Below, in pieces: positions 1 through 45,906 of a DNA stretch of 64,000 nucleotides. The notes below the pieces were generated by a model, which saw only the letters and a program-made list of their open reading frames with translations, ran no database searches and had not been told where the DNA came from. The position numbers and the translations under genes were made by a program. Within the stretch, counting starts at the first letter, position 1, and each line of letters starts with the position of its first letter. This DNA comes from Owenia fusiformis (lineage: Eukaryota; Annelida; Polychaeta; Sabellida; Oweniidae), in assembly GCA_903813345.2 (NCBI GenBank), contig CAIIXF020000006.1, forward strand, positions 15,192,348 to 15,256,347, given 5' to 3'.

Positions 1-3000
1 TTGAGGAAGGGAATCGTTGTTTACGAAATGCTCTAGTCATCGTTCGGGCCTATTTTCTTTCAAATGTCTGTTGTTCGCAGAGATACGTATACCAAGTGTA
101 TTCGTGCCGTCTAGATATACGGCAACGGTGGCCCGTACGCGAACTTCAAACGCGTATATCTCGATAACTAATGGTCGGATTTCAATTTGGTTCACTGTTT
201 TTTTAATGCTCGGAAAACTGTCTTTCCGACCAGCTAGTTTTCCTCCGATTCTGACTTCTTAAGGAGGCTCGAGAGGCCGAAATAGCGGAAATGCAGATTT
301 CGACCTAGATTTCGACCTTTGACCCAGATAAGGATTTGACCTAATTTCCGAGCAACTACGCCTAGCCCCCTAACAACGTGTACGAGTAGATTTATCCAAA
401 TATCTCTCGTTGATGAGAACGTGTGGTTAGAAGGATTTTTGCTTTTGCACATACAAAAGCAAAAATCATAATAGGATTTGGCCATACGCGTATAGAGGGA
501 AATGGCTCTACGGACGCTCTGAGGGCCTATAATGGTCGATTAAAGGACGGAGAATCTAGGGAGGTAGTTGGGGAGAATGCCTGGCTCGTGCTTCGCGGAT
601 CCGTCGAGGTCAAAAAATAGTCCTTCAAAAAATAGGCCTTCCAGACGTCTATATAGAGCTTTCGACGTAGATTCGAGCAGCGTACGCGTCGTTCTACATT
701 CCGCAATCGTTAGTTTGAGGAAGGGAATCGTTGTTTACGAAATGCTCTAGTCATCGTTCGGGCCTATTTTCTTTCAAATGTCTGTTGTTCGCAGAGATAC
801 GTATACCAAGTGTATTCGTGCCGTCTAGATATACGGCAACGGTGGCCCGTACGCGAACTTCAAACGCGTATATCTCGATAACTAATGGTCGGATTTCAAT
901 TTGGTTCACTGTTTTTTTAATGCTCGGAAAACTGTCTTTCCGACCAGCTAGTTTTCCTCCGATTCTGACTTCTTAAGGAGGCTCGAGAGGCCGAAATAGC
1001 GGAAATGCAGATTTCGACCTAGATTTCGACCTTTGACCCAGATAAGGATTTGACCTAATTTCCGAGCAACTACGCCTAGCCCCCTAACAACGTGTACGAG
1101 TAGATTTATCCAAATATCTCTCGTTGATGAGAACGTGTGGTTAGAAGGATTTTTGCTTTTGCACATACAAAAGCAAAAATCATAATAGGATTTGGCCATA
1201 CGCGTATAGAGGGAAATGGCTCTACGGACGCTCTGAGGGCCTATAATGGTCGATTAAAGGACGGAGAATCTAGGGAGGTAGTTGGGGAGAATGCCTGGCT
1301 CGTGCTTCGCGGATCCGTCGAGGTCAAAAAATAGTCCTTCAAAAAATAGGCCTTCCAGACGTCTATATAGAGCTTTCGACGTAGATTCGAGCAGCGTACG
1401 CGTCGTTCTACATTCCGCAATCGTTAGTTTGAGGAAGGGAATCGTTGTTTACGAAATGCTCTAGTCATCGTTCGGGCCTATTTTCTTTCAAATGTCTGTT
1501 GTTCGCAGAGATACGTATACCAAGTGTATTCGTGCCGTCTAGATATACGGCAACGGTGGCCCGTACGCGAACTTCAAACGCGTATATCTCGATAACTAAT
1601 GGTCGGATTTCAATTTGGTTCACTGTTTTTTTAATGCTCGGAAAACTGTCTTTCCGACCAGCTAGTTTTCCTCCGATTCTGACTTCTTAAGGAGGCTCGA
1701 GAGGCCGAAATAGCGGAAATGCAGATTTCGACCTAGATTTCGACCTTTGACCCAGATAAGGATTTGACCTAATTTCCGAGCAACTACGCCTAGCCCCCTA
1801 ACAACGTGTACGAGTAGATTTATCCAAATATCTCTCGTTGATGAGAACGTGTGGTTAGAAGGATTTTTGCTTTTGCACATACAAAAGCAAAAATCATAAT
1901 AGGATTTGGCCATACGCGTATAGAGGGAAATGGCTCTACGGACGCTCTGAGGGCCTATAATGGTCGATTAAAGGACGGAGAATCTAGGGAGGTAGTTGGG
2001 GAGAATGCCTGGCTCGTGCTTCGCGGATCCGTCGAGGTCAAAAAATAGTCCTTCAAAAAATAGGCCTTCCAGACGTCTATATAGAGCTTTCGACGTAGAT
2101 TCGAGCAGCGTACGCGTCGTTCTACATTCCGCAATCGTTAGTTTGAGGAAGGGAATCGTTGTTTACGAAATGCTCTAGTCATCGTTCGGGCCTATTTTCT
2201 TTCAAATGTCTGTTGTTCGCAGAGATACGTATACCAAGTGTATTCGTGCCGTCTAGATATACGGCAACGGTGGCCCGTACGCGAACTTCAAACGCGTATA
2301 TCTCGATAACTAATGGTCGGATTTCAATTTGGTTCACTGTTTTTTTAATGCTCGGAAAACTGTCTTTCCGACCAGCTAGTTTTCCTCCGATTCTGACTTC
2401 TTAAGGAGGCTCGAGAGGCCGAAATAGCGGAAATGCAGATTTCGACCTAGATTTCGACCTTTGACCCAGATAAGGATTTGACCTAATTTCCGAGCAACTA
2501 CGCCTAGCCCCCTAACAACGTGTACGAGTAGATTTATCCAAATATCTCTCGTTGATGAGAACGTGTGGTTAGAAGGATTTTTGCTTTTGCACATACAAAA
2601 GCAAAAATCATAATAGGATTTGGCCATACGCGTATAGAGGGAAATGGCTCTACGGACGCTCTGAGGGCCTATAATGGTCGATTAAAGGACGGAGAATCTA
2701 GGGAGGTAGTTGGGGAGAATGCCTGGCTCGTGCTTCGCGGATCCGTCGAGGTCAAAAAATAGTCCTTCAAAAAATAGGCCTTCCAGACGTCTATATAGAG
2801 CTTTCGACGTAGATTCGAGCAGCGTACGCGTCGTTCTACATTCCGCAATCGTTAGTTTGAGGAAGGGAATCGTTGTTTACGAAATGCTCTAGTCATCGTT
2901 CGGGCCTATTTTCTTTCAAATGTCTGTTGTTCGCAGAGATACGTATACCAAGTGTATTCGTGCCGTCTAGATATACGGCAACGGTGGCCCGTACGCGAAC

Positions 3001-6000
3001 TTCAAACGCGTATATCTCGATAACTAATGGTCGGATTTCAATTTGGTTCACTGTTTTTTTAATGCTCGGAAAACTGTCTTTCCGACCAGCTAGTTTTCCT
3101 CCGATTCTGACTTCTTAAGGAGGCTCGAGAGGCCGAAATAGCGGAAATGCAGATTTCGACCTAGATTTCGACCTTTGACCCAGATAAGGATTTGACCTAA
3201 TTTCCGAGCAACTACGCCTAGCCCCCTAACAACGTGTACGAGTAGATTTATCCAAATATCTCTCGTTGATGAGAACGTGTGGTTAGAAGGATTTTTGCTT
3301 TTGCACATACAAAAGCAAAAATCATAATAGGATTTGGCCATACGCGTATAGAGGGAAATGGCTCTACGGACGCTCTGAGGGCCTATAATGGTCGATTAAA
3401 GGACGGAGAATCTAGGGAGGTAGTTGGGGAGAATGCCTGGCTCGTGCTTCGCGGATCCGTCGAGGTCAAAAAATAGTCCTTCAAAAAATAGGCCTTCCAG
3501 ACGTCTATATAGAGCTTTCGACGTAGATTCGAGCAGCGTACGCGTCGTTCTACATTCCGCAATCGTTAGTTTGAGGAAGGGAATCGTTGTTTACGAAATG
3601 CTCTAGTCATCGTTCGGGCCTATTTTCTTTCAAATGTCTGTTGTTCGCAGAGATACGTATACCAAGTGTATTCGTGCCGTCTAGATATACGGCAACGGTG
3701 GCCCGTACGCGAACTTCAAACGCGTATATCTCGATAACTAATGGTCGGATTTCAATTTGGTTCACTGTTTTTTTAATGCTCGGAAAACTGTCTTTCCGAC
3801 CAGCTAGTTTTCCTCCGATTCTGACTTCTTAAGGAGGCTCGAGAGGCCGAAATAGCGGAAATGCAGATTTCGACCTAGATTTCGACCTTTGACCCAGATA
3901 AGGATTTGACCTAATTTCCGAGCAACTACGCCTAGCCCCCTAACAACGTGTACGAGTAGATTTATCCAAATATCTCTCGTTGATGAGAACGTGTGGTTAG
4001 AAGGATTTTTGCTTTTGCACATACAAAAGCAAAAATCATAATAGGATTTGGCCATACGCGTATAGAGGGAAATGGCTCTACGGACGCTCTGAGGGCCTAT
4101 AATGGTCGATTAAAGGACGGAGAATCTAGGGAGGTAGTTGGGGAGAATGCCTGGCTCGTGCTTCGCGGATCCGTCGAGGTCAAAAAATAGTCCTTCAAAA
4201 AATAGGCCTTCCAGACGTCTATATAGAGCTTTCGACGTAGATTCGAGCAGCGTACGCGTCGTTCTACATTCCGCAATCGTTAGTTTGAGGAAGGGAATCG
4301 TTGTTTACGAAATGCTCTAGTCATCGTTCGGGCCTATTTTCTTTCAAATGTCTGTTGTTCGCAGAGATACGTATACCAAGTGTATTCGTGCCGTCTAGAT
4401 ATACGGCAACGGTGGCCCGTACGCGAACTTCAAACGCGTATATCTCGATAACTAATGGTCGGATTTCAATTTGGTTCACTGTTTTTTTAATGCTCGGAAA
4501 ACTGTCTTTCCGACCAGCTAGTTTTCCTCCGATTCTGACTTCTTAAGGAGGCTCGAGAGGCCGAAATAGCGGAAATGCAGATTTCGACCTAGATTTCGAC
4601 CTTTGACCCAGATAAGGATTTGACCTAATTTCCGAGCAACTACGCCTAGCCCCCTAACAACGTGTACGAGTAGATTTATCCAAATATCTCTCGTTGATGA
4701 GAACGTGTGGTTAGAAGGATTTTTGCTTTTGCACATACAAAAGCAAAAATCATAATAGGATTTGGCCATACGCGTATAGAGGGAAATGGCTCTACGGACG
4801 CTCTGAGGGCCTATAATGGTCGATTAAAGGACGGAGAATCTAGGGAGGTAGTTGGGGAGAATGCCTGGCTCGTGCTTCGCGGATCCGTCGAGGTCAAAAA
4901 ATAGTCCTTCAAAAAATAGGCCTTCCAGACGTCTATATAGAGCTTTCGACGTAGATTCGAGCAGCGTACGCGTCGTTCTACATTCCGCAATCGTTAGTTT
5001 GAGGAAGGGAATCGTTGTTTACGAAATGCTCTAGTCATCGTTCGGGCCTATTTTCTTTCAAATGTCTGTTGTTCGCAGAGATACGTATACCAAGTGTATT
5101 CGTGCCGTCTAGATATACGGCAACGGTGGCCCGTACGCGAACTTCAAACGCGTATATCTCGATAACTAATGGTCGGATTTCAATTTGGTTCACTGTTTTT
5201 TTAATGCTCGGAAAACTGTCTTTCCGACCAGCTAGTTTTCCTCCGATTCTGACTTCTTAAGGAGGCTCGAGAGGCCGAAATAGCGGAAATGCAGATTTCG
5301 ACCTAGATTTCGACCTTTGACCCAGATAAGGATTTGACCTAATTTCCGAGCAACTACGCCTAGCCCCCTAACAACGTGTACGAGTAGATTTATCCAAATA
5401 TCTCTCGTTGATGAGAACGTGTGGTTAGAAGGATTTTTGCTTTTGCACATACAAAAGCAAAAATCATAATAGGATTTGGCCATACGCGTATAGAGGGAAA
5501 TGGCTCTACGGACGCTCTGAGGGCCTATAATGGTCGATTAAAGGACGGAGAATCTAGGGAGGTAGTTGGGGAGAATGCCTGGCTCGTGCTTCGCGGATCC
5601 GTCGAGGTCAAAAAATAGTCCTTCAAAAAATAGGCCTTCCAGACGTCTATATAGAGCTTTCGACGTAGATTCGAGCAGCGTACGCGTCGTTCTACATTCC
5701 GCAATCGTTAGTTTGAGGAAGGGAATCGTTGTTTACGAAATGCTCTAGTCATCGTTCGGGCCTATTTTCTTTCAAATGTCTGTTGTTCGCAGAGATACGT
5801 ATACCAAGTGTATTCGTGCCGTCTAGATATACGGCAACGGTGGCCCGTACGCGAACTTCAAACGCGTATATCTCGATAACTAATGGTCGGATTTCAATTT
5901 GGTTCACTGTTTTTTTAATGCTCGGAAAACTGTCTTTCCGACCAGCTAGTTTTCCTCCGATTCTGACTTCTTAAGGAGGCTCGAGAGGCCGAAATAGCGG

Positions 6001-6893
6001 AAATGCAGATTTCGACCTAGATTTCGACCTTTGACCCAGATAAGGATTTGACCTAATTTCCGAGCAACTACGCCTAGCCCCCTAACAACGTGTACGAGTA
6101 GATTTATCCAAATATCTCTCGTTGATGAGAACGTGTGGTTAGAAGGATTTTTGCTTTTGCACATACAAAAGCAAAAATCATAATAGGATTTGGCCATACG
6201 CGTATAGAGGGAAATGGCTCTACGGACGCTCTGAGGGCCTATAATGGTCGATTAAAGGACGGAGAATCTAGGGAGGTAGTTGGGGAGAATGCCTGGCTCG
6301 TGCTTCGCGGATCCGTCGAGGTCAAAAAATAGTCCTTCAAAAAATAGGCCTTCCAGACGTCTATATAGAGCTTTCGACGTAGATTCGAGCAGCGTACGCG
6401 TCGTTCTACATTCCGCAATCGTTAGTTTGAGGAAGGGAATCGTTGTTTACGAAATGCTCTAGTCATCGTTCGGGCCTATTTTCTTTCAAATGTCTGTTGT
6501 TCGCAGAGATACGTATACCAAGTGTATTCGTGCCGTCTAGATATACGGCAACGGTGGCCCGTACGCGAACTTCAAACGCGTATATCTCGATAACTAATGG
6601 TCGGATTTCAATTTGGTTCACTGTTTTTTTAATGCTCGGAAAACTGTCTTTCCGACCAGCTAGTTTTCCTCCGATTCTGACTTCTTAAGGAGGCTCGAGA
6701 GGCCGAAATAGCGGAAATGCAGATTTCGACCTAGATTTCGACCTTTGACCCAGATAAGGATTTGACCTAATTTCCGAGCAACTACGCCTAGCCCCCTAAC
6801 AACGTGTACGAGTAGATTTATCCAAATATCTCTCGTTGATGAGAACGTGTGGTTAGAAGGATTTTTGCTTTTGCACATACAAAAGCAAAAATC
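1..6893. repeat. 714-bp satellite array, about 9.65 copies
   Basis: Head-to-tail copies with a period of 714 bases (landmarks at 17, 731, 1445 and on to 6443) that look identical by eye. The array already runs at base 1, so its left end is outside the window. The unit is richer in G+C and CpG than flanking DNA. It contains short reading frames of 60-83 codons on both strands that repeat with each copy; they have no recognisable domain, overlap each other and are treated as chance frames. Each unit holds a perfect hairpin (434-467 in the first copy). The identity implies recent homogenisation or amplification. Confidence 0.97.
6860..6893. repeat. Hairpin at the right edge of the satellite
   Basis: Perfect inverted repeat with 14-base arms (6860-6873 and 6880-6893) and a 6-base loop. 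It is present in every 714-bp unit, but here homology to the unit stops at, or one base after, the end of the second arm. A ten-base-arm palindrome (6904-6913 with 6916-6925) follows almost at once. Confidence 0.9.
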
Positions 6894-6925
6894 ACTAGAC
6901 ATGTAAATTGAACAAGTTCAATTTA

Positions 6926-9310
6926 AGACTCCAGATTTAATTCTTTTTTTAAGCTGAGTCATCCAGAATACTTGTAAGCTGAGTCATCCAGAATAAGCTG
7001 ATCGAGTCAGCTAGAATTTAGACATTTAGACAACTCTCCATTTTTTATCTTCGACTCCATTGGCTTAACATGGGGATATCATCATATCGACTTTTCGAGA
7101 CTTCAAACCGCTATAACTATCTAACCAGAAGTTAGATTGTATTTTGGTTTAAAGATTCGGACTCCTGAGAAAATTCTACCCTTAATTCATAACTCATACA
7201 TTAAATTTGGAGATTTTTTTATTTTGACCTACTTTTTGGACACCATATCTCAAAAGTGGGTCAAAATACTTTCTGACGGCAAAAGGCTATCACTATAAGC
7301 ACACTCTTTGCTACCTGTATACAAAATTTCGAAGCAAATCATTAAAGTGTAATGTCAGAATCGCAAAAATAAGGAAAATTATGAATTTGCCCTAGATTTT
7401 GACCTTGGCATTTTGGTGTCCAAATTTTAAAGCTAGATAGCCTTCGAGGTCCCCTTCTTTTAAAGGCTTTCAGAATGTTAAGCTGTACTCAGTCTATATC
7501 TGGTATTTTAGACTTCAAAAAAATCTTTTTCCCTATTGACATAACATGGGGCACCAAATTTAGCAATTTTTGAGCTTTCAAACGCTATAACTTTCAAACA
7601 GAAAATCGGATCGAAATTTGGTTTGCAGATTCAGATTCCTCAGAAAATTCTATCCTTATTTCATAACTCATATGCTAAATTCGGAGAACTTTTATTTTGA
7701 CCTACTTTTCGGACACCATATCTCAAAAGTGGGTCAAAATACTCTCTGACGGCAAAAGGCTAACACTATTAGCACACTCTTTGCTACCTGTATACAAAAT
7801 TTTGAAGCAAATCCTAAAAGTGTAGTGCCAGAATCGCAAAAATAAGGAAAAACTATGAATTTGACCTAGATTTTGACCTAGGCATTTTGGTGTCCAAATA
7901 TTGAAACTAGGTAGCTTTTGAGGTCCCCTTCTTTTATAGGAATTCATTATCTTAAGCTGTACTCAATCTATATCTCGTATTTTACACTTCAAAAAAATCT
8001 TTTTTCCTTGACTTTCTATCAGGATAACATCAGATCGATTTTTCTCGAAATTTCAAAACGCCATAACTTTCAAACCGGAAGTCGGATCGAAATTTGATTT
8101 AAAGATTCGGATTCCTGACAAAATTCTACCCCTTATTCATAACTCATACGTTAAATTTGGCGAATTTTTATTTTGACCTACTTTTAGGACACGCCATAAC
8201 TTTGGAACTGGAAGTCGGATCAACATTTGGTTTGCAGATTCGGATTCCTGAGAAAATTCTACTCTTAATTCATAACTCATACGTAAAATTTGGAGAATTT
8301 TTTATTTTGACCTACTTTTCGGACACCATATCTCAAAAGTGGGTCAAAATACTCTCTGACGGCAAAAGGCTAACACTATAAGCTCACTCTTTGCTACCTG
8401 TATACAAAATTTCGAAGCAAATCCTAAAAGTGTAGTGCCAGAATCGCAAAAATAAGGAAAAACTATGTATTTGACCTAGATTTTGACCTAGGGATTTTGG
8501 TGTCCAAATTTTAAAGCTAGTTAGCCTTCGAGGTCCCCTTCTTTTATAGACTTTCAGAATCTTAAGCTGTACTCAGTCTTTATCTGGTATTTTACACTTC
8601 AAAAAAATCTTTTTTCTCATTGACATAACATGGGGCACCAAAATTAGCGATTTTTGAGCTTTCAAAACGCCATAACTTCCCAACGAAAAGTCGGATTGAA
8701 ATTTGGTTTGCAGATTCGGATTCCTGAGAAAATTCTACCCTTAATTCATAACTCATAAGTTAAATTATGAGAAATTTTTATTTTGACCTACTTTACGGAC
8801 ACCATATCTCAAAAGTGGGTCAAAATACTTTCTGACGGCAAAAGGCTCTCACTATTAGCACACTCTTTGCTACCTGTATACAAAATTTTGAAGCAAATCC
8901 TAAAAGTGTAGTGCCAGAATCGCAAAAATAAGGAAAAACTATGAATTTGACCTAGATTTTGACCTAGGCATTCTGGTGTCCAAATTTCGAAGCTATGTAG
9001 CTTTTGAGGTCCCCTTCTTTTATAGGCATTGAATATGTTAAACTGAACTCAGTCTATATCTTGTATTTTACACTTCGAAAAAGCCTTTTTTCCCATTGAC
9101 TTAACATGGGCACCAAATTTAGCGATTTTTGAGATTTCAAAACGCTATAACTTCCGAACCGGAAGTCGGATCAAAATTTTGTTTGCAGATTCGGATTCCT
9201 GAGATAATTCTACACTAATTTGATAATTCACACGTTGAATTTGGAGAATTTTTTATGTTCTGACCTACTTTTCGGACGCCATATCTCAAAATCGGTAAGA
9301 GTAATCAAAA
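6926..9310. repeat. Degenerate ~475-bp tandem repeat region
   Basis: Five diverged units anchored by a motif containing GGACACCATATCTC at about 7238, 7711, 8321, 8797 and, as GGACGCC, 9274. Spacings are about 473, 610, 476 and 477; the long interval holds an extra partial unit near 8050-8190. The left edge starts with AGACTCCAGAT (6926-6936), which recurs in inverted form at the right side (9608-9685), so the region may be one element with short inverted ends. A 20-base direct repeat lies at about 6951-6996. No gene is visible. Confidence 0.85.
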
Positions 9311-9561: not shown

Positions 9562-9590
9562 AAATAATAATAATAATAATAATAATAAGA
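9562..9590. repeat. (AAT)n microsatellite
   Basis: Seven to eight consecutive AAT triplets between the repeat region and the paired hairpins. Confidence 0.9.
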
Positions 9591-9607
9591 AAACTGGCAA
9601 AAGCAAT

Positions 9608-9685
9608 AGACTCCAGATGAAATCTGGAGTCTAATAAGAAGAATACTGGCAAAAACAATAGACTCCAGATTGACATCTGGAGTCT
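9608..9685. repeat. Two tandem hairpins of AGACTCCAGAT
   Basis: Two perfect 11-base-arm hairpins: 9608-9618 with 9622-9632 (3-base loop) and 9660-9670 with 9675-9685 (4-base loop). They lie in a direct repeat of about 52 bases that also includes an ACTGGCAAAARCAATAG-type spacer. The same 11-mer stands at 6926. Confidence 0.9.
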
Positions 9686-9930
9686 AATAAATTAAGTGAT
9701 CTTTGGCAAAATTGTCTCTTATTCAAATGAATAAATCAGCATTGTACATTTTGAACTTTTCAGATATCATGATTTTAGATTAATTTCACAATTCATTTAA
9801 TTCTTGTTTTAATATTAGAAAATCAAGGTGAGATCTGATTTCACTTAGCATCATTATGGGCACATATAAAAATGTCTACCCTAAATACTTTTAAAATATG
9901 AACAAAAAAGATGAAATTCAAAGGAATTGA

Positions 9931-10075: not shown

Positions 10076-10192
10076 TTTATAATAATCTTTTTTCTAGGTT
10101 TTAGTGTACCTGTTATATTTAAAAATGTGTTTCATGATTGTAAATCATGAATTCATCTACTCAATATTAATCAATCAGTTTTATATTTCCAG

Positions 10193-10662
10193 AACTTCAT
10201 AGCAAACATAAAAGGGACACCACAGAACTTCAAACAAAATCCAGACAAAAACGCGAAGCATTTATACCTGCTGGGCTCGTCGCTGGAGTTATTAAAATGT
10301 GTGATCGTCATTCATTTTGGTGCAATCACCACATCTTTAGAATCACTGATGAAATCACAGATAGAACTGTTCAAATCTCAACCGGAACTACTTCTTCACA
10401 TGCGAGAGAAATCCGTAGTACAGACATTATCAACAGAAATGATCCAATTAATACTCATGCTGACAATATTGCTTCTGCAGACATTGTAAAATCAAGACGA
10501 CGGAGATTCGTTGTTCACGGTATGGTTATGGGAATCATTCGTATGTGTAGAAGGCACCCCCAGAGATGTAGTCGAAAGAGAATTGAGATTCTTGACACTT
10601 TTACTGGGCGAAGAACTGAGGTTCGATCGTCGCATGGGCGGACGACTGCATCTGAATATTGA
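10193..10662 (+). CDS. 3' exon of a secreted-peptide-like precursor with two CX6C modules (partial)
   Basis: An acceptor (TATATTTCCAG) ends at 10192. The open frame then enters with two bases of a split codon and runs 155 codons to TGA at 10660-10662. The protein has two matching modules. Module 1 follows KSRQKR and reads F-I-P-A-G-L-V-A-G-V-I-K-M-C-x-R-H-x3-C; module 2 follows KSRRRR and reads F-V-V-H-G-M-V-M-G-I-I-R-M-C-x-R-H-x3-C. Both continue with an I-x-D-x2-T-x-R segment. About 13 of 36 aligned residues are identical, with many conservative changes, while the DNA is clearly diverged; this argues for selection on this frame. Basic cleavage-type sites and paired cysteines fit a prohormone, but no signal peptide is visible; upstream exons must lie beyond the satellite or outside the window. 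The family is not recognised. A Leu-rich frame over the same bases (10193-10489) is the main alternative. Confidence 0.55.
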
Positions 10663-12542
10663 AACAAAAATGTTGTAATACATGCATGGTGCAGCTAATA
10701 ATGGTTTACAGTAAAACCATCTTTGGGAATGACCTTTACAAATTTTCCCATAGTGATATAATAGTGAGCTAAAGAACTGCCAAATACTCATGATGGAAGA
10801 TTTAGATCCAATGTGAGTCTTGACTGTGGGCCAAAAACTGAATGCTTCTTTAGACAAAATAGTTTTAGTTTTCTGTATGTTTCAGAAAATTCTTTTGATA
10901 TCCTATATAAGAAGTAAATGTGTTAACACCCTGTGATAGATTTGCCAAGAATTTCAGTATTTCTATTCAAAAATCTAGCATCAGATCTGAGTGCATTTTT
11001 TTTGTTATTATTTGTAGTTAGGCCAACTTCAGTACAGGTGACATTAAGATATAGTACTTGACAACATAAGTTGAGCAAGCAGCCTCTTATGAACTTTCAA
11101 TAGTGATATTGCCAAATATATTTTTGAGTTGAAAGTTACTGTAACTGTACATCATACTACTCACATACTGCTCAGATTTTCTTAATGCATTTATTACATT
11201 TGCATTTCTATGATTGCATTCTATCTCAATACTAAGATTTGACATAAGTACCTCACTCTATTCACCATAATAGACTTTTGTAACCACTAAGTAGAATAAC
11301 ATGATCTTAAAGAGTAATATAGTTTTGTACCAAATCCCCAAGAAGGGAATAGGAATTGAACAAGGTCACTGAAATCATTTTATTTATTCTACTGAAAAGC
11401 TATTATTTTAAGCATTATTCTGTAGGTTGTAATTTTCGATGACAGATCTCTAAATGTATATATTCTATACTGAATGTTGAAAAGTACATTGCTGAGGAAG
11501 CAAATAGTCTTGCTTCAGATATTAAGCTGACTGATAGAAGGGCATTTTGTGATATATTTTAAACCTAAATGTTTTGAACATTTATACATGTACTCCTACA
11601 TTATGTTAAGTTATTAGTTAAGAGCCTTATCGTATACTTATTGCATTTAATTTGTCTTGTGTATGATGATTACAAGCGCTAGAGAGGATTATAAAATGTC
11701 GCAAATTATTTGCATGTTTTTGAGGGAAAATCTGTACCTTCGTTGACCTGAGCTTATAAAATATGAAAAAAAACAGTTTCTAATTTCCTTCTTATTGCTT
11801 GTAAAAATATGATGTGCAGAGACTGTATGTTTTCGGGCTTATATGTAGACTTGCATCAAGTTGTTTCAGAGTAACTCATTGCCCATTTTCTTGAATAGCT
11901 TCAGAATGTTGTGTAATCTAAATGTAATATGTTAAAGCCTGGCTTGTGCATTCTGAATTAGACTAGCCATTAATCCATTTTGTTTACATATATTATAAAA
12001 CCCTGTTAAAATAGGAATGGCACTACATGGCAAGTCTAAAATTTTCCGAATATGCATAACAATTTTTATTTAAAACTTATCTGTAGCAATACTTGCTAGA
12101 ATAGTCATGTATTTGAAATGTGTTCACCATTAAAAATTGATGTTCATATATTTTACATATATTGAAATACAGTTACAATTTTTTGAAGAAAATTACTACA
12201 ACTTTTCTGTGACTATATATATATTTTATTTTTAAGTTCATTTATTCATTCTTCATACAAAACACAGCAAATTCTAAAAGAAAAGCTTTACAAGGCAAAA
12301 GGACCTTCTGATATGCCTAAAATGAGAATTGTTGAATGAAGTTGATTTGATTCAATTATTCAACACCACTGGATTTCCAGATAGACATGATAGATAGATA
12401 AATCGTTGCAGTCTCAAAAACTTTGTCATTTAAACAAAAATCTTTTGCATCCCTTAAATCATCTTTGTTTATGTCATTTGAAGGTTTGGCACATATTGTT
12501 AATTGTTTGTTCTAGAGTTTGACCATTATTTGTTCATCTTCA
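10663..12542. other. AT-rich stretch without genes
   Basis: Follows the stop codon of the 10193-10662 exon and could hold its 3' untranslated region. No long frame, splice-consistent exon or repeat family was seen on either strand. Confidence 0.5.
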
Positions 12543-16285: not shown

Positions 16286-19200
16286 TTATCTAGGATCACT
16301 AGGTTTGTTCAATCTGGGTATAGTAGCAACTCCTCTGCCCTGGCCAACTAGTTGTGGTCTAGGAAGTCCTGGGGGTCTGTTTCCCACCCCAGGGAGAACT
16401 CCAGCCCCACCCAATGGCTGACCACGTCCAAGACCAATCCCACCCATATTCTGAGTTAGAAGACAGTTCAGTAGCATCTGATTTTGCTTAATCATTTGAT
16501 CCTGAGTCATGGTGGGAACCAGTGCTTGGGCTGACAGCAGTGGTTGCTGACCAGCTGCCTGGCCCAATAACTGTTGGTTCTGTAGCAGTTGGGCATTCAG
16601 GAGTCCAGGGTTAGTAGCAGCTTGGATCACTGATGGTGTCAGTTGACCAGTTAGTCCTGCCGCTGTGCTACCCTGTAGCAATGTTTGGTTCTGTTGATTC
16701 AGCAGTTGTTGATTTAAAAGCATTTGTTGTAACAATAGTTGCTGTTGTGCAGCATTTGATGCTACACCTCCAGTAAGGAGATTCAACCCTGGGAGTCCCC
16801 CTGTACTAGCCTGAGCCCCAAGGCCAGAATCCTGACCCACAGGATCTTGAGCTTCTTTGGTATCCTGAACAGTGGAGGCTTGCATTGGGGCTACTATATT
16901 GGTCTTAATTGAGCTATGAGGAGATGCAGGGATAGAGTCGGCCTCATCTGAGTATTGAACACTAGGGGTCACTGCAGCTGTCTTAGTAGGACGTGGTGGA
17001 CTAGAAATTTGTGTCTCCATGACACGCTGGATCAGTTCTTCCTGCTCAGTGGGTTTGTGCTTCTGGTTATTTGGGTGATCTGTAACAAAGTTATTGTAAC
17101 ATGAAATGGTATGTGCTTTCCCTGTAGTATACTCCTGTGACAGAGTTAGTCTTCAACATATCACCGTAGCAGGTAAAGCATTACTGTAGTCTCAGCTTTA
17201 ACCTAAGATGGCTAAAAAGATGGCTAACCTGATAGGTTCCATTGGGCATATTGATTGATAAATAAAACCATGTGCCTTGAAATAATATCAAAAAGACTCT
17301 CAATCTGCATAATTAACAAATAGGAACAAAGCATGCATTATATTAACATGCAAAATGTCACTACCTGCCATTTGTTACAGACGCAAAATGCTGACTGCCT
17401 TACAATGTCCACAAAAACATTGGAGACTATAATAATAATATGACACCACTTGTGATGGTGACATAAAAATGGGATTATTCATCAGATTTTGACTTTTTAT
17501 TTTCCCACAACTTTGTCTATCTGAGACACTGCCATGGGAGTTTGTCTTTGTATTACTATTTATACATGTTTACCTTTTAAAGTATATAGGTCTTGTAAAT
17601 ATTTTAATATCTCTACATTTACAAATTAAACTAGAAAATACTAAAGTTGTCCAGCATTGACAATTTTTTCTATAATGGGTAGCACTGCTGCAAGATTTAC
17701 ATAGCCTCCCTCAAAAAGTAATCTATTCTGTGAGCCAAGTGTTATGATTCAAGAATTTGACAATTTGAAACTAGAAAAACAGCAACTCCACGGAGTAGCA
17801 AATCCCACCGAACAAAACATATTATGCTTATTATAGCTAGTGTAAATGTTGAAATGTTTGTGCACTTTGTGATAGAAGCATGAAATTTGGCACAAAGTTA
17901 GTTTATACCATTGTGAACTAGGCATCATCATATAAAATTTGAACCAAATCCGTTCACTGGTATATGAGTTATCAAAGATTACGTTTTTACAAATATGGGC
18001 CGCCATCTTGAAATTCAGCCGCCATCTTGAAAATTAATTCTTGAACAGAGCTACTGTGTCCCTAGGCATAATCATATAAAATTTCAACCAAATCTGTTCA
18101 CTGGTATTTGAGTTATCAAAGATTACGTTTTTTACGAAAAATTGCCGCCATTTTGAAATTAAGCCGCCATCTTGAAAATGTTTTGTCGAACATAGCTACT
18201 GTGTCCCTAAGCATCATCATATAAAATTTGAACCAAATCTGTTCACTTGTATTTGAGTTATCAAAGATTACATATTTTTATGAAAAATGGCTGCCATTTT
18301 AAAATAAAGCCGCCATCTTGAAAATCTCTTTTTGTGCGAAACTCCTTTTTCCCTAGGCATCAGCATATAAAATTTGAACCAAATCCGTTCACTGGTATAT
18401 GAGTTACCAAAGATTACGTTTTTTATTTTAACGAATATGGGTCGCCATCTTGAAATTCAGCCGCCATCTTGAAAATTATTTCTTGAACAGAGCTACTGTG
18501 TCCCTAGGCATAATCATATAAAATTTCAACCAAATCTGTTCACTGGTATTTGAGTTATCAAAGATTACTTTTTTTACGAAAAATTGCCGCCATTTTGAAA
18601 TTAAGCGGCCATCTTGAAAATGTTTTGTCGAACATAGCTACTGTGTCCCTAAGCATCATCATATAAAATTTGAACCAAATCCGTTCACTGGTATTTGAGT
18701 TATCAAAGATTACATATTTTTACGAAAAATGGCCGCCATTTTGAAATTAAGTGGCCATCTTGAAAATCTCTTTTTGTGCGAAACTCCTTTGTCCCTAGGC
18801 ATCAGCATATAAAATTTGAACCAAATCCGTCAACTTGTATTTGAGTTATCAACGATTACATTTTTTTACGAAAAATGGCGGCCATTTTGAATTGAGCGGC
18901 CATATTGAAAATTCCTTCTCGAGCAGAGGTCCTACACTCATAAGGCATAAACCTATAAAATTTGAACCAAATCCGTCAACCGGTATTAAGTTATCGCCCG
19001 GACACACGGACAAACGAACGGACGGACGGACAGACGGACGGACGGACGGACGGAAGGAAGGAAGGACGGACGGACGGCTTCTCTATATCCCCCTCGAACT
19101 TCGTTCGGTTGGATAAGTAGTGTAGCACAGGGCATAAACCCCTGTCACCATCATTTCAATAGTACCATTTTCAGGCAAGTCAATAAATCACTGGGGGCAT

Positions 19201-27839: not shown

Positions 27840-29610
27840 CCAAAAGAAGTTTATTTTTATTTTTTATTAATTTATTGCAATCACTTTTAGATCAGTGGCA
27901 CATAGTTAAACTAGTGCAGCAGTTAAACATACAATACATGTGTACAAGTACAATTCTAAAGCAGAGCTTAAAACATTTGCGCAATAAGACATAAAAACAA
28001 AACTAAAACATTTGCAATACATTAAATTGTTGGTGCTACATATATGTTTTTGATAAAATACTTTGAGCATGCATCAAAAATATAACCTTGTTCTTGACCC
28101 AAGATAGCAGAGGCCGCATCCCCAAGCACCCATTCTAAACCATTATTGGGAATACATGTCTTAAAATAATTATAAATGTGTGGAAGTCTATTCTCAATGC
28201 TATTATAAAATATAAACCTTTCCTCTTTAAACTTTGGGCAGGTAAAAATCGATGTTCAGGAGTTTCTTTACAGCTCATATTACAAAAAGAACACATTCCA
28301 TCACTTATACCCCATCTCTCAAGATCAATGGCGAGACCAAAGCATCTTGATCTGGCCTTGAATTTAAGTTTTTGAGCATAGAAGTCAAAATCAAATCAGT
28401 TTTAAGGTATTTTTCCATAAGTGTGTTTCTTTTAATATTACTATATACTGTAAGTGACTTTTTCTGGTTTATCGAGTCAAAAAATGTATTGCGTAACAAA
28501 TCATTAGATATTTTCAAATATGACGAGTACCAATCTGTGTCCTCTCTGTACATTACATCGTCTAAACCATGGTTGGTCAAAATATCTTTAATGCTAGAAA
28601 AATAAGACCAGGTGGCTGTATTTCCCTTTTTAAAGTCCTCAAACATATAATTGAAAATATTCTTGTGGAGCCCTGCTTTAAGAGAGCTCTTTAAGTAGAT
28701 AAAATAGTCAATTTTTCTTTTTTCTATGACATTACATATAGGCCTCCATCCCAAGTCACCGAACAGGGCCTCCTTAGCAGGATTACACTTGAGTTGTAAT
28801 AGCGATTTTCCTATCTTATATTGAAAGGTAGCTAGTGTTTTGCAATTTGATTTGTTCAATACGAAGGTACTACAACCATGCAAAATTGCAGGTACAAACA
28901 TTGAATTATATATAGTATCACCAAAGCTTATGCGCTTTGCATTACAGTGTTTACTCAGAGTTGAACACAACATGCCTTGCATGCGTTTAGCTTTTGGCTT
29001 AAGGAAGGCATCTATGTGATAGGTGTCCTTTAATGTCCTATCAAAGTAGACCCCCAGATATTTATGGTTTTGAACTTCAGTTAGTTGAAGATCACCAAGA
29101 TGCCAAATTTTTTCTTTATTGATGCGCTTACCTATCACCATTACTTTTGACTTTTTTGGGCTATATTTAACGCCCCATTTTAGTGAAAATTTATTTGCAA
29201 TTTGCAACATTTTGTTCAATTCCCCTTCAGATTCTGCCATAAGGACGATATCATCTGCAAAAAGCAGAGCAGGGACATTTCCATTATTAAAAGGTATTCC
29301 TGTGTTTTCTGAATGTAGCATCTCAATTAATTCTGTCATTATGAAGGAAAAAAGCATAGGGGATAAACAGCAGCCCTGTTTCAGGCCTGTGGGAGCACTA
29401 TACCAGTCACTCTCAGGGTTGTTACCTGTGATTGGAGTGTCATTTTCAAAATTCAGATTTTTCATAAGTTCATTATCAAAATTACCACTTTTCACAAAGT
29501 GTATGTTTTTAAATAACTCTTGGACTAAAAGATGGCGTATAATTGAAAATCCTTTCAAAAATGAATGGACAATTAATGCAAACAACAATGCCATCTTTCT
29601 ATGGCATTGC
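27840..29610 (-). mobile_element. 5'-truncated non-LTR retrotransposon (LINE)
   Basis: Carries the reverse transcriptase part of a LINE on the minus strand, followed by about 450 bases of 3' sequence ending near an A/T-rich stretch at 27850. Endonuclease and the N-terminal part of the transcriptase are absent, the usual result of incomplete target-primed reverse transcription. It lies immediately upstream of the first visible exon of the minus-strand gene. Ends are approximate. Confidence 0.85.
28305..29594 (-). pseudogene. LINE reverse transcriptase fragment
   Basis: A 429-codon open frame with GLKQGCCLSPMLFSF and the catalytic FADDIVLMAES (the FADD form of YXDD), then the thumb region with KYLGVYFDRTLK. 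Near 28370-28380 the frame shifts: another frame continues with a QKLKFKARSRCFGLAIDLERW-like sequence and then CSFCNMSCKETPEH, the Cys/His end typical of such proteins. The copy is therefore truncated at the 5' side and frameshifted near the 3' side. Confidence 0.85.
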
Positions 29611-44511: not shown

Positions 44512-45158
44512 ACAGGAAGTTTGAGAAGCCACATATTTTGAATTTTGATTTCTGTGCCAGTCTCTGCCATCTGTCTGCAATTTTCACTTGTAAGTATATA
44601 TTTGATTGTTTTGTTATGAATAAATGAGCATATGTTAGGTGCACCTATTATATAGAAGACTTTCAAATACCAGATAGGCTCTATGGGATAGGCTAGGGTG
44701 AAATTCAAAGATAGATCTAAAAATAAATTCAGGAGAAATTGAAAAAAAATTTCAAAGTCACTGAAAGTCTTGTCTTAAAAGTCCAGGGCATAGGCTAGTT
44801 CTTTGGAGTTTTAAAAAAGATATTTATAATCTGCAATGCATAACATTTTCTGAATGAAGCCAGACATGGGCCAAAATCCTGGCCAAAATGTAATTTCTGA
44901 GTGATATTTCTAGGCTACCTTTTTATTTTATAGACTTGATGTTGGCATTGGTCAGATGTTGGCATATCATGAGGAGTGAAGGCAGTGAAGAATACAATAA
45001 TTACATAATCAATGGATGGAGGGCCATGTATCAGCAATGTGGAATGCAACCGGGAATAGCTATTTAGGCTAAGTGCGTAGAGTAAACGTTTTACAGTTTT
45101 ATGAAATCTAGGCTAATAATAATTTATTTTGCTTATTCAGCGTATCGTTGGAATCGTG

Positions 45159-45560
45159 CCCCCATGTCATATCACCATGTTCATTTCACATCACCATGTT
45201 CCCATGTTATATCACCATGTTCATTTCATATCACGATGTTCCCATGTTAGATCACAATGTTCATGTCATATCACCATGCTCCCATGTTATATCACCATGT
45301 TCATGTCATATCACCATGATCCCATGTTATATCACCATGTTCATTTCATATCACCATGTACCCTTTTATATCACCACGTTCATTTCATATCACCATGTTC
45401 CCATGTTATGTCACCATGTTCATTTCATATTACCTGCTCCCATGTTATGTCACCATGTTCATTTCATATTACCTGCTCCCATGTTATATCACCATGTTTG
45501 TTTTATATCATCATGCCCCAATGTTATATCACCATTCATTTCATCATGCTACCATGTTCA
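45159..45560. repeat. Minisatellite of ~20/40-bp units
   Basis: Alternating ATATCACCATGTTCATTTC and ATATCACCATGTTCCCATGTT half-units, about ten 40-base units. Frames through it translate to His/Met/Ser repeats and are not counted as genes. Confidence 0.9.
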
Positions 45561-45906
45561 TAACCTTATTATGCCCTCATGTCATATCACCAATTCAACA
45601 TGTTAATAGCCTATGCTTCCTCACAGGGCTATAATGAAATTGTAAATATGTCAACCCTAACTATGACAAAATAATCTAGCATTATATATTAACTTTTGGC
45701 CCCTGTTAAAATATTATAAACAATTTGTGTATGCAAACTGAATTCTCTGTTCAAAGATATTATTTCGAACTTTAATTTACATTAACTATTATGGTAAGCA
45801 AATCTGCCAATGTTCATAGAAAACTATATTTTCAGGTAACTGTTATCAGTTATAACAACAAAAAGCTTGTGGGGGTGGAGCAAAAACCCAAAAGGATGGT
45901 TAAACT

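Follow-up and report, generated by a model that had tools for sequence, protein, structure and literature searches.

A candidate terminal exon at 10193-10662 (+) in the annelid Owenia fusiformis, which encodes two modules of ~37 residues each carrying a single CX6C cysteine pair, raises the question of what kind of product it specifies, and whether that product belongs to any known family of peptides. We examined it within a window (the whole stretch of DNA analysed, 64,000 nucleotides, C6:15192348-15256347) and searched 498 Mb of the genome in 525 contigs. An initial annotation had proposed that one frame holds the motif F-x3-G-x-V-x-G-(V/I)-I-(K/R)-M-C-x-R-H-x3-C in two modules, both directly behind basic runs, and this holds to the letter: exact pattern matching in frame gave FIPAGLVAGVIKMCDRHSFWC (10261-10323) after KSRQKR and FVVHGMVMGIIRMCRRHPQRC (10507-10569) after KSRRRR, and both sites are present in the translation (Table 1).

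Table 1. Features of the two-module exon and its surroundings (window positions).
Feature	Position	Strand	Basis or remark
Tandem arrays within the presumed 30-kb intron	1..9291	.	714-bp units to 6894; older ~475-bp units 7095-9291
3' splice site of a phase-1 intron (pyrimidine-rich tract + AG)	10173..10192	+	Sequence; score 7.3
Terminal coding exon	10193..10662	+	Split codon (its final two bases), then 155 codons and TGA; frame backed by conservation of both modules
Basic site KHKR	10204..10215	+	Translation
Furin/convertase-type site RQKR, ahead of module 1	10243..10254	+	Preceding KSR common to module 2
Module 1, 37 residues	10261..10371	+	Cys codons 10300-10302 and 10321-10323
Furin/convertase-type site RRRR, ahead of module 2	10495..10506	+	Translation
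Module 2, 37 residues	10507..10617	+	Cys codons 10546-10548 and 10567-10569

The modules resemble each other as proteins while their DNA has diverged, much as the annotation had described. Aligned without gaps they are identical at 14 of 37 residues (the earlier count was about 13 of 36), and the local alignment score between the module parts, 93, was reached by none of 5000 shuffles (mean 24.8, SD 4.6, maximum 60). At the DNA level, codon positions 1, 2 and 3 agree at 17/37, 22/37 and 10/37 sites respectively (positions 1 + 2 vs. 3, Fisher p = 0.008); third positions are thus saturated, and a different codon is used at 10 of the 14 identical residues. Similarity so far above that of shuffled sequences, combined with saturated third positions, argues for conservation at the protein level, as would be seen, here within one species, in a mature peptide under selection. 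We read the pair as an old duplication retained at the protein level. The annotation had taken the unit to be a CX6C peptide, and while that pair is found in both modules, four further positions are shared past the second cysteine (I-x-D-x-x-T-x-R), the last of them 14 residues on, so that the conserved unit exceeds a CX6C peptide. By this measure of internal similarity, the stop-to-stop open frames of at least 100 aa in the window include two with a higher score, which overlap each other and belong to a short tandem DNA repeat (within 45112-45606); the exon's alternative, Leu-rich frame scores 24 and has no internal repeat.

No named family in Pfam or NCBIfam matched above cut-off, nor did any PDB sequence, in keeping with the annotation's failure to place the modules. 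Pfam returned no family for the exon at E ≤ 5 or for the joined precursor (below) and each module at E ≤ 10, and PDB sequences gave no match to the exon at E ≤ 10; a three-row profile drew a single PDB sequence (E = 5.8). The bacterial NCBIfam model NF047524 (LIC_10461 domain) reached 20.6 bits against the precursor (E = 4.5e-4; curated cut-off 60 bits) and 15.7 bits against the first half of the exon (E = 0.015), the modules alone giving no match; a whole-genome search with this model listed one other place and missed the module exon, and given that miss and the distance from the cut-off we judge the match to be chance. A TrbC_conju match to module 2's half of the exon (E = 0.14) was set aside as noise, and the Leu-rich frame gave two sub-threshold Pfam matches to membrane proteins (E = 0.014 and 0.018). 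AlphaFold2, run on the two-module alignment (two sequences), predicted a helix, a helix and a two-strand hairpin (mean pLDDT 69, pTM 0.39), and a single-sequence model placed the same elements in the same order in both modules (mean pLDDT 51). A Foldseek search of the PDB gave 212 matches at E ≤ 10, the best at E = 0.72; the helix-helix-hairpin fold is thus only a suggestion of the models. In the article text covered by the literature search nothing matched the module motif strings, and there was no matching description among the papers listed or in the available passages of PMC3890597, PMC8398477, PMC8557429, PMC7737342, PMC8786951, PMC12343078, PMC10880339 or PMC9977687. The last of these reports, in the passages available, an O. 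fusiformis assembly of 505.8 Mb with 12 chromosome-scale scaffolds and 26,966 gene models (PMC9977687), a set that may already contain this gene, unnamed.

A signal-peptide-like exon with a compatible splice phase lies ~30 kb upstream of the modules, outside the window (C6:15172406-15172517; MSLLPLAMLILVLLDFIMMIVAAPISHRKSLSTMITK). By a simple heuristic (not SignalP) its hydrophobic core has a mean hydropathy of 3.05; TTTCAG stands two bases ahead of its ATG, its phase-1 donor (score 11.2) ranks first among the 1397 GTs of the intervening 30 kb, and it matches only itself in the genome. On a simple consensus score, 32 of the 1793 other AGs in 30 kb rank above the acceptor at 10192, and from phase and splice scores we infer that the two exons are joined. 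The scan that found the upstream exon, covering 40 kb upstream of the window and its first 10 kb on the same strand, returned 20 hydrophobic ATG starts, four of which, at three places, had a phase-1 donor scoring at least 5. None of 40 simulated 50-kb sequences (first-order) yielded a candidate with donor ≥ 11 and hydropathy ≥ 2.9, thresholds set after the real candidate had been seen, and two of the 40 gave any candidate with donor ≥ 9. No internal exon (30-450 bases, phase 1 at both ends, both splice scores ≥ 6) was found between the two.

Read in frame, the two exons give a 193-residue precursor in which a signal peptide is followed by a spacer to KHKR (KR 44-45), a short peptide to RQKR (55-58), module 1, a linker of ~40 residues, RRRR (139-142), module 2, SRKR downstream of its cysteines (RK 165-166), GRR near its end (RR 177-178) and a short tail. 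Basic convertase sites thus flank the peptides, though a further RR (157-158) sits between the two cysteines of module 2. The annotation's proposal of the C-terminal part of a multi-peptide precursor gains from module similarity, from the basic sites before both modules and from the phase-compatible signal-peptide-like exon 30 kb away, and on these grounds we incline, by a little more than an even balance, to the view that the modules lie on the final exon of a genuine gene for a secreted precursor of ~193 residues, which would release two paralogous one-disulfide peptides, most likely extracellular signals.

Several features count against this. The exon's codon-usage score (-0.04) is below those of all 13 true-frame control chunks (-0.029 to 0.091), in a test trained on 12 receptor loci that is without power here, true-frame and shifted 155-codon chunks overlapping and the frames being indistinguishable. 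There is no AATAAA between the stop codon and 14000, where a single ATTAAA occurs at 12129; the presumed intron is 30 kb long and filled with repeats; and a first-pass scan of the rest of the window gave other, weaker phase-1 signal-peptide-like exons (donors 9.1 and 9.7). A GRR amidation-type site is found in module 2 only, with none in module 1, and cutting at the RR in the loop of module 2 would break the proposed ring peptide.

The repeats of the presumed intron include the satellite array that the annotation had placed beside the exon, which is real: on C6 it comprises 11 full 714-bp copies, all 100% identical, two of them before the window. The unit occurs at no fewer than four places (C6, window 1-6894; C10; C11; C497) among 33 matches listed, with 4 of 169 candidates scored, and all four of the arrays listed have 468 as the unit position at which they begin and end, which would fit movement of the entire array as a single element. 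At 9563-9690 an (AAT)n run stands beside two 52-bp repeats containing ACTCCAGAT...ATCTGGAGT, and strings resembling their translation recur around -6004 and -1893, upstream of the window, so that the feature may border an element of the same kind. Elsewhere in the window, a 434-codon frame at 28305-29609 (-) matches PF00078 (reverse transcriptase domain) at E = 5.9e-18 and probably belongs to a LINE-type element, and a 288-codon Gln-rich open frame at 16286-17152 (-) has no Pfam match. The haemoglobin-linker domain PF16915, which is typical of annelids, matches at three places on C6, one of them with an internal stop, and so points to an annelid rather than to a mollusc.

If the precursor is made as we propose, the signal peptide on the upstream exon would direct it into the secretory pathway, by analogy with known prohormones, and furin or prohormone convertases would cut after RQKR and RRRR to release peptides beginning EAFIPAG and FVVHGMV. 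Each, with one disulfide, would begin as a hydrophobic helix, continue into the CX6C loop and end in a tail of two strands. The GRR of module 2 is a possible amidation and cleavage site; were it used, and SRKR and the loop RR left uncut, the second peptide would be C-terminally amidated and 33 residues long, while the first has no such site. The two would then signal, as peptide hormones or neuropeptides, via putative receptors. Candidate receptors are plentiful in the genome, with at least 152 matches to 7tm_1 (147 of 1173 candidates scored) spread over every contig from C1 to C12 and a few small contigs, none of them linked to the gene.

Strong matches to the module exon were confined to its own locus in the genome. 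The best candidate for a relative is a stretch on C8 (L003:1478-1581; GVIKMCSKGCFWCNH), a putative paralogous exon that encodes four cysteines and follows a good phase-1 acceptor (20 of 1570 other AGs score higher). Within it, VINGVIKMCSKGCFWCNHPI is identical to LVAGVIKMCDRHSFWCNHHI of module 1 at 12 of 20 residues, retaining the G-x-I-x-M-C-x6-C that both modules have and the N-H of module 1. Its E-values are 2.2 with the full exon as query, 0.068 with module 1 and 0.016 in the reciprocal search; with module 2 it was not listed at E ≤ 10, and a reversed-module control search (n = 1) gave no matches. The 31 kb upstream of it held no phase-1 signal-peptide-like exon, no linking exon was convincing among 19 candidates (best 15 of 19; several resemble retroelement frames), and Pfam gave for its peptide hGDE_N alone (E = 0.18). 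Whether the stretch is a diverged paralogous exon, and hence a third copy of the CX6C core, we judge to be close to an even matter. Also on C8, a signal-peptide-like exon at 11021882 has a strong phase-2 donor (10.7) and is paired with no following exon. Weak places on C7 (E = 1.96) and C3 (E = 2.94) were taken as chance. A scan of genome_contigs produced 82 pattern matches that led to one locus (L021), on a Desulfobacteraceae MAG contig, with E = 7e-8 among candidates only; the match is antisense to a 500-residue frame, presumably an acyl-CoA synthetase, and is without both cysteines, and we regard it as chance rather than as a relative or as mussel-host DNA. The scan of viral_contigs (90 pattern matches) gave no relatives.

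Other products could be made from the same exon. The chief rival keeps a secreted and processed precursor but makes its products membrane-active host-defence peptides with a hydrophobic helix and a cationic disulfide loop, because module 2 starts with a hydrophobic stretch and becomes strongly cationic around its Cys pair (MCRRHPQRCSRKR); furin-type sites would also suit secretion outside the nervous system. In the 'Rana box' antimicrobial peptides of frogs a hydrophobic helix likewise precedes a disulfide loop, but there the loop is C-terminal, whereas here it is followed by the conserved I-x-D-x-x-T-x-R tail, which such peptides would not need. Module 1, moreover, is barely cationic (MCDRHSFWCNHH), and the exon, precursor and modules are all without a Pfam match. 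Signalling is favoured because both copies have retained their protein sequence, even in a tail for which no role at a membrane is obvious, and we consider defence unlikely, though worth keeping in view. Less probable still, in our judgement, is a secreted protein that is never cut, its basic runs staying intact and its two small domains serving in binding or structure. A conserved unit of ~37 residues with a predicted helix and hairpin does look more like a domain than like a short peptide, and on this reading the loop RR of module 2 would simply be surface charge; against this, module 1 is immediately preceded by RQKR and module 2 by RRRR, and the linker from one module to the next falls below pLDDT 50 in the single-sequence model.

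The remaining explanations ask whether there is a new product at all. A chance open frame or a decayed gene would fit the length of the exon, which is unremarkable (the window has other frames of 120-174 aa in which no gene is known), and codon usage gives the frame no support; yet the modules resemble each other in protein but not at third positions, the frame is unbroken and there is a signal-peptide-like exon of matching phase, and we think this reading quite improbable. A diverged gene of the allatostatin-C/somatostatin type, the least credible of all, would account for the six residues between the cysteines, a spacing shared with allatostatin C as described in passages of PMC8786951. The same passages describe a single disulfide peptide per gene, against two modules here, and an Aplysia peptide that ends C-Y, one residue past the second cysteine, where conservation in Owenia reaches 14 residues beyond it (PMC8786951); Pfam, again, finds no match. 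An orphan secreted two-peptide precursor, ordinary in kind and new in sequence within the searches made, thus appears the most likely identity of the gene. That it founds an undescribed family of peptide hormones (helix, CX6C loop, conserved beta-hairpin tail), with each precursor of this early-branching annelid carrying two ligands and a diverged paralogue lying on another chromosome, is a more tentative proposal, which we hold to be possible but would not expect to stand as a whole.

The gene may encode a previously undescribed hormone or defence peptide and, if it is a hormone precursor, it offers a ready pair of ligands for testing on the orphan receptors of an annelid whose clade is, in the passages available, sister to all other annelids (PMC10880339). 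Among annelids it has likely company in the Platynereis-specific Cys-containing proneuropeptides (such as WLD, SHM and RNT), likewise orphan precursors with cysteines, as far as their descriptions in passages of PMC3890597 allow them to be likened. A close parallel in layout comes from multi-ligand hormone precursors such as that of oyster eclosion hormone, which according to passages of PMC8398477 carries two ligands of 24% identity with a dibasic site between them; the proposed Owenia precursor is alike in its signal peptide, its basic sites and its two diverged disulfide ligands. Eclosion hormones differ in having six cysteines (PMC8398477), where the Owenia modules have two each and no Pfam match. 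A prohormone with several ligands is an ordinary kind of system, and what would be new in Owenia lies in the sequence.
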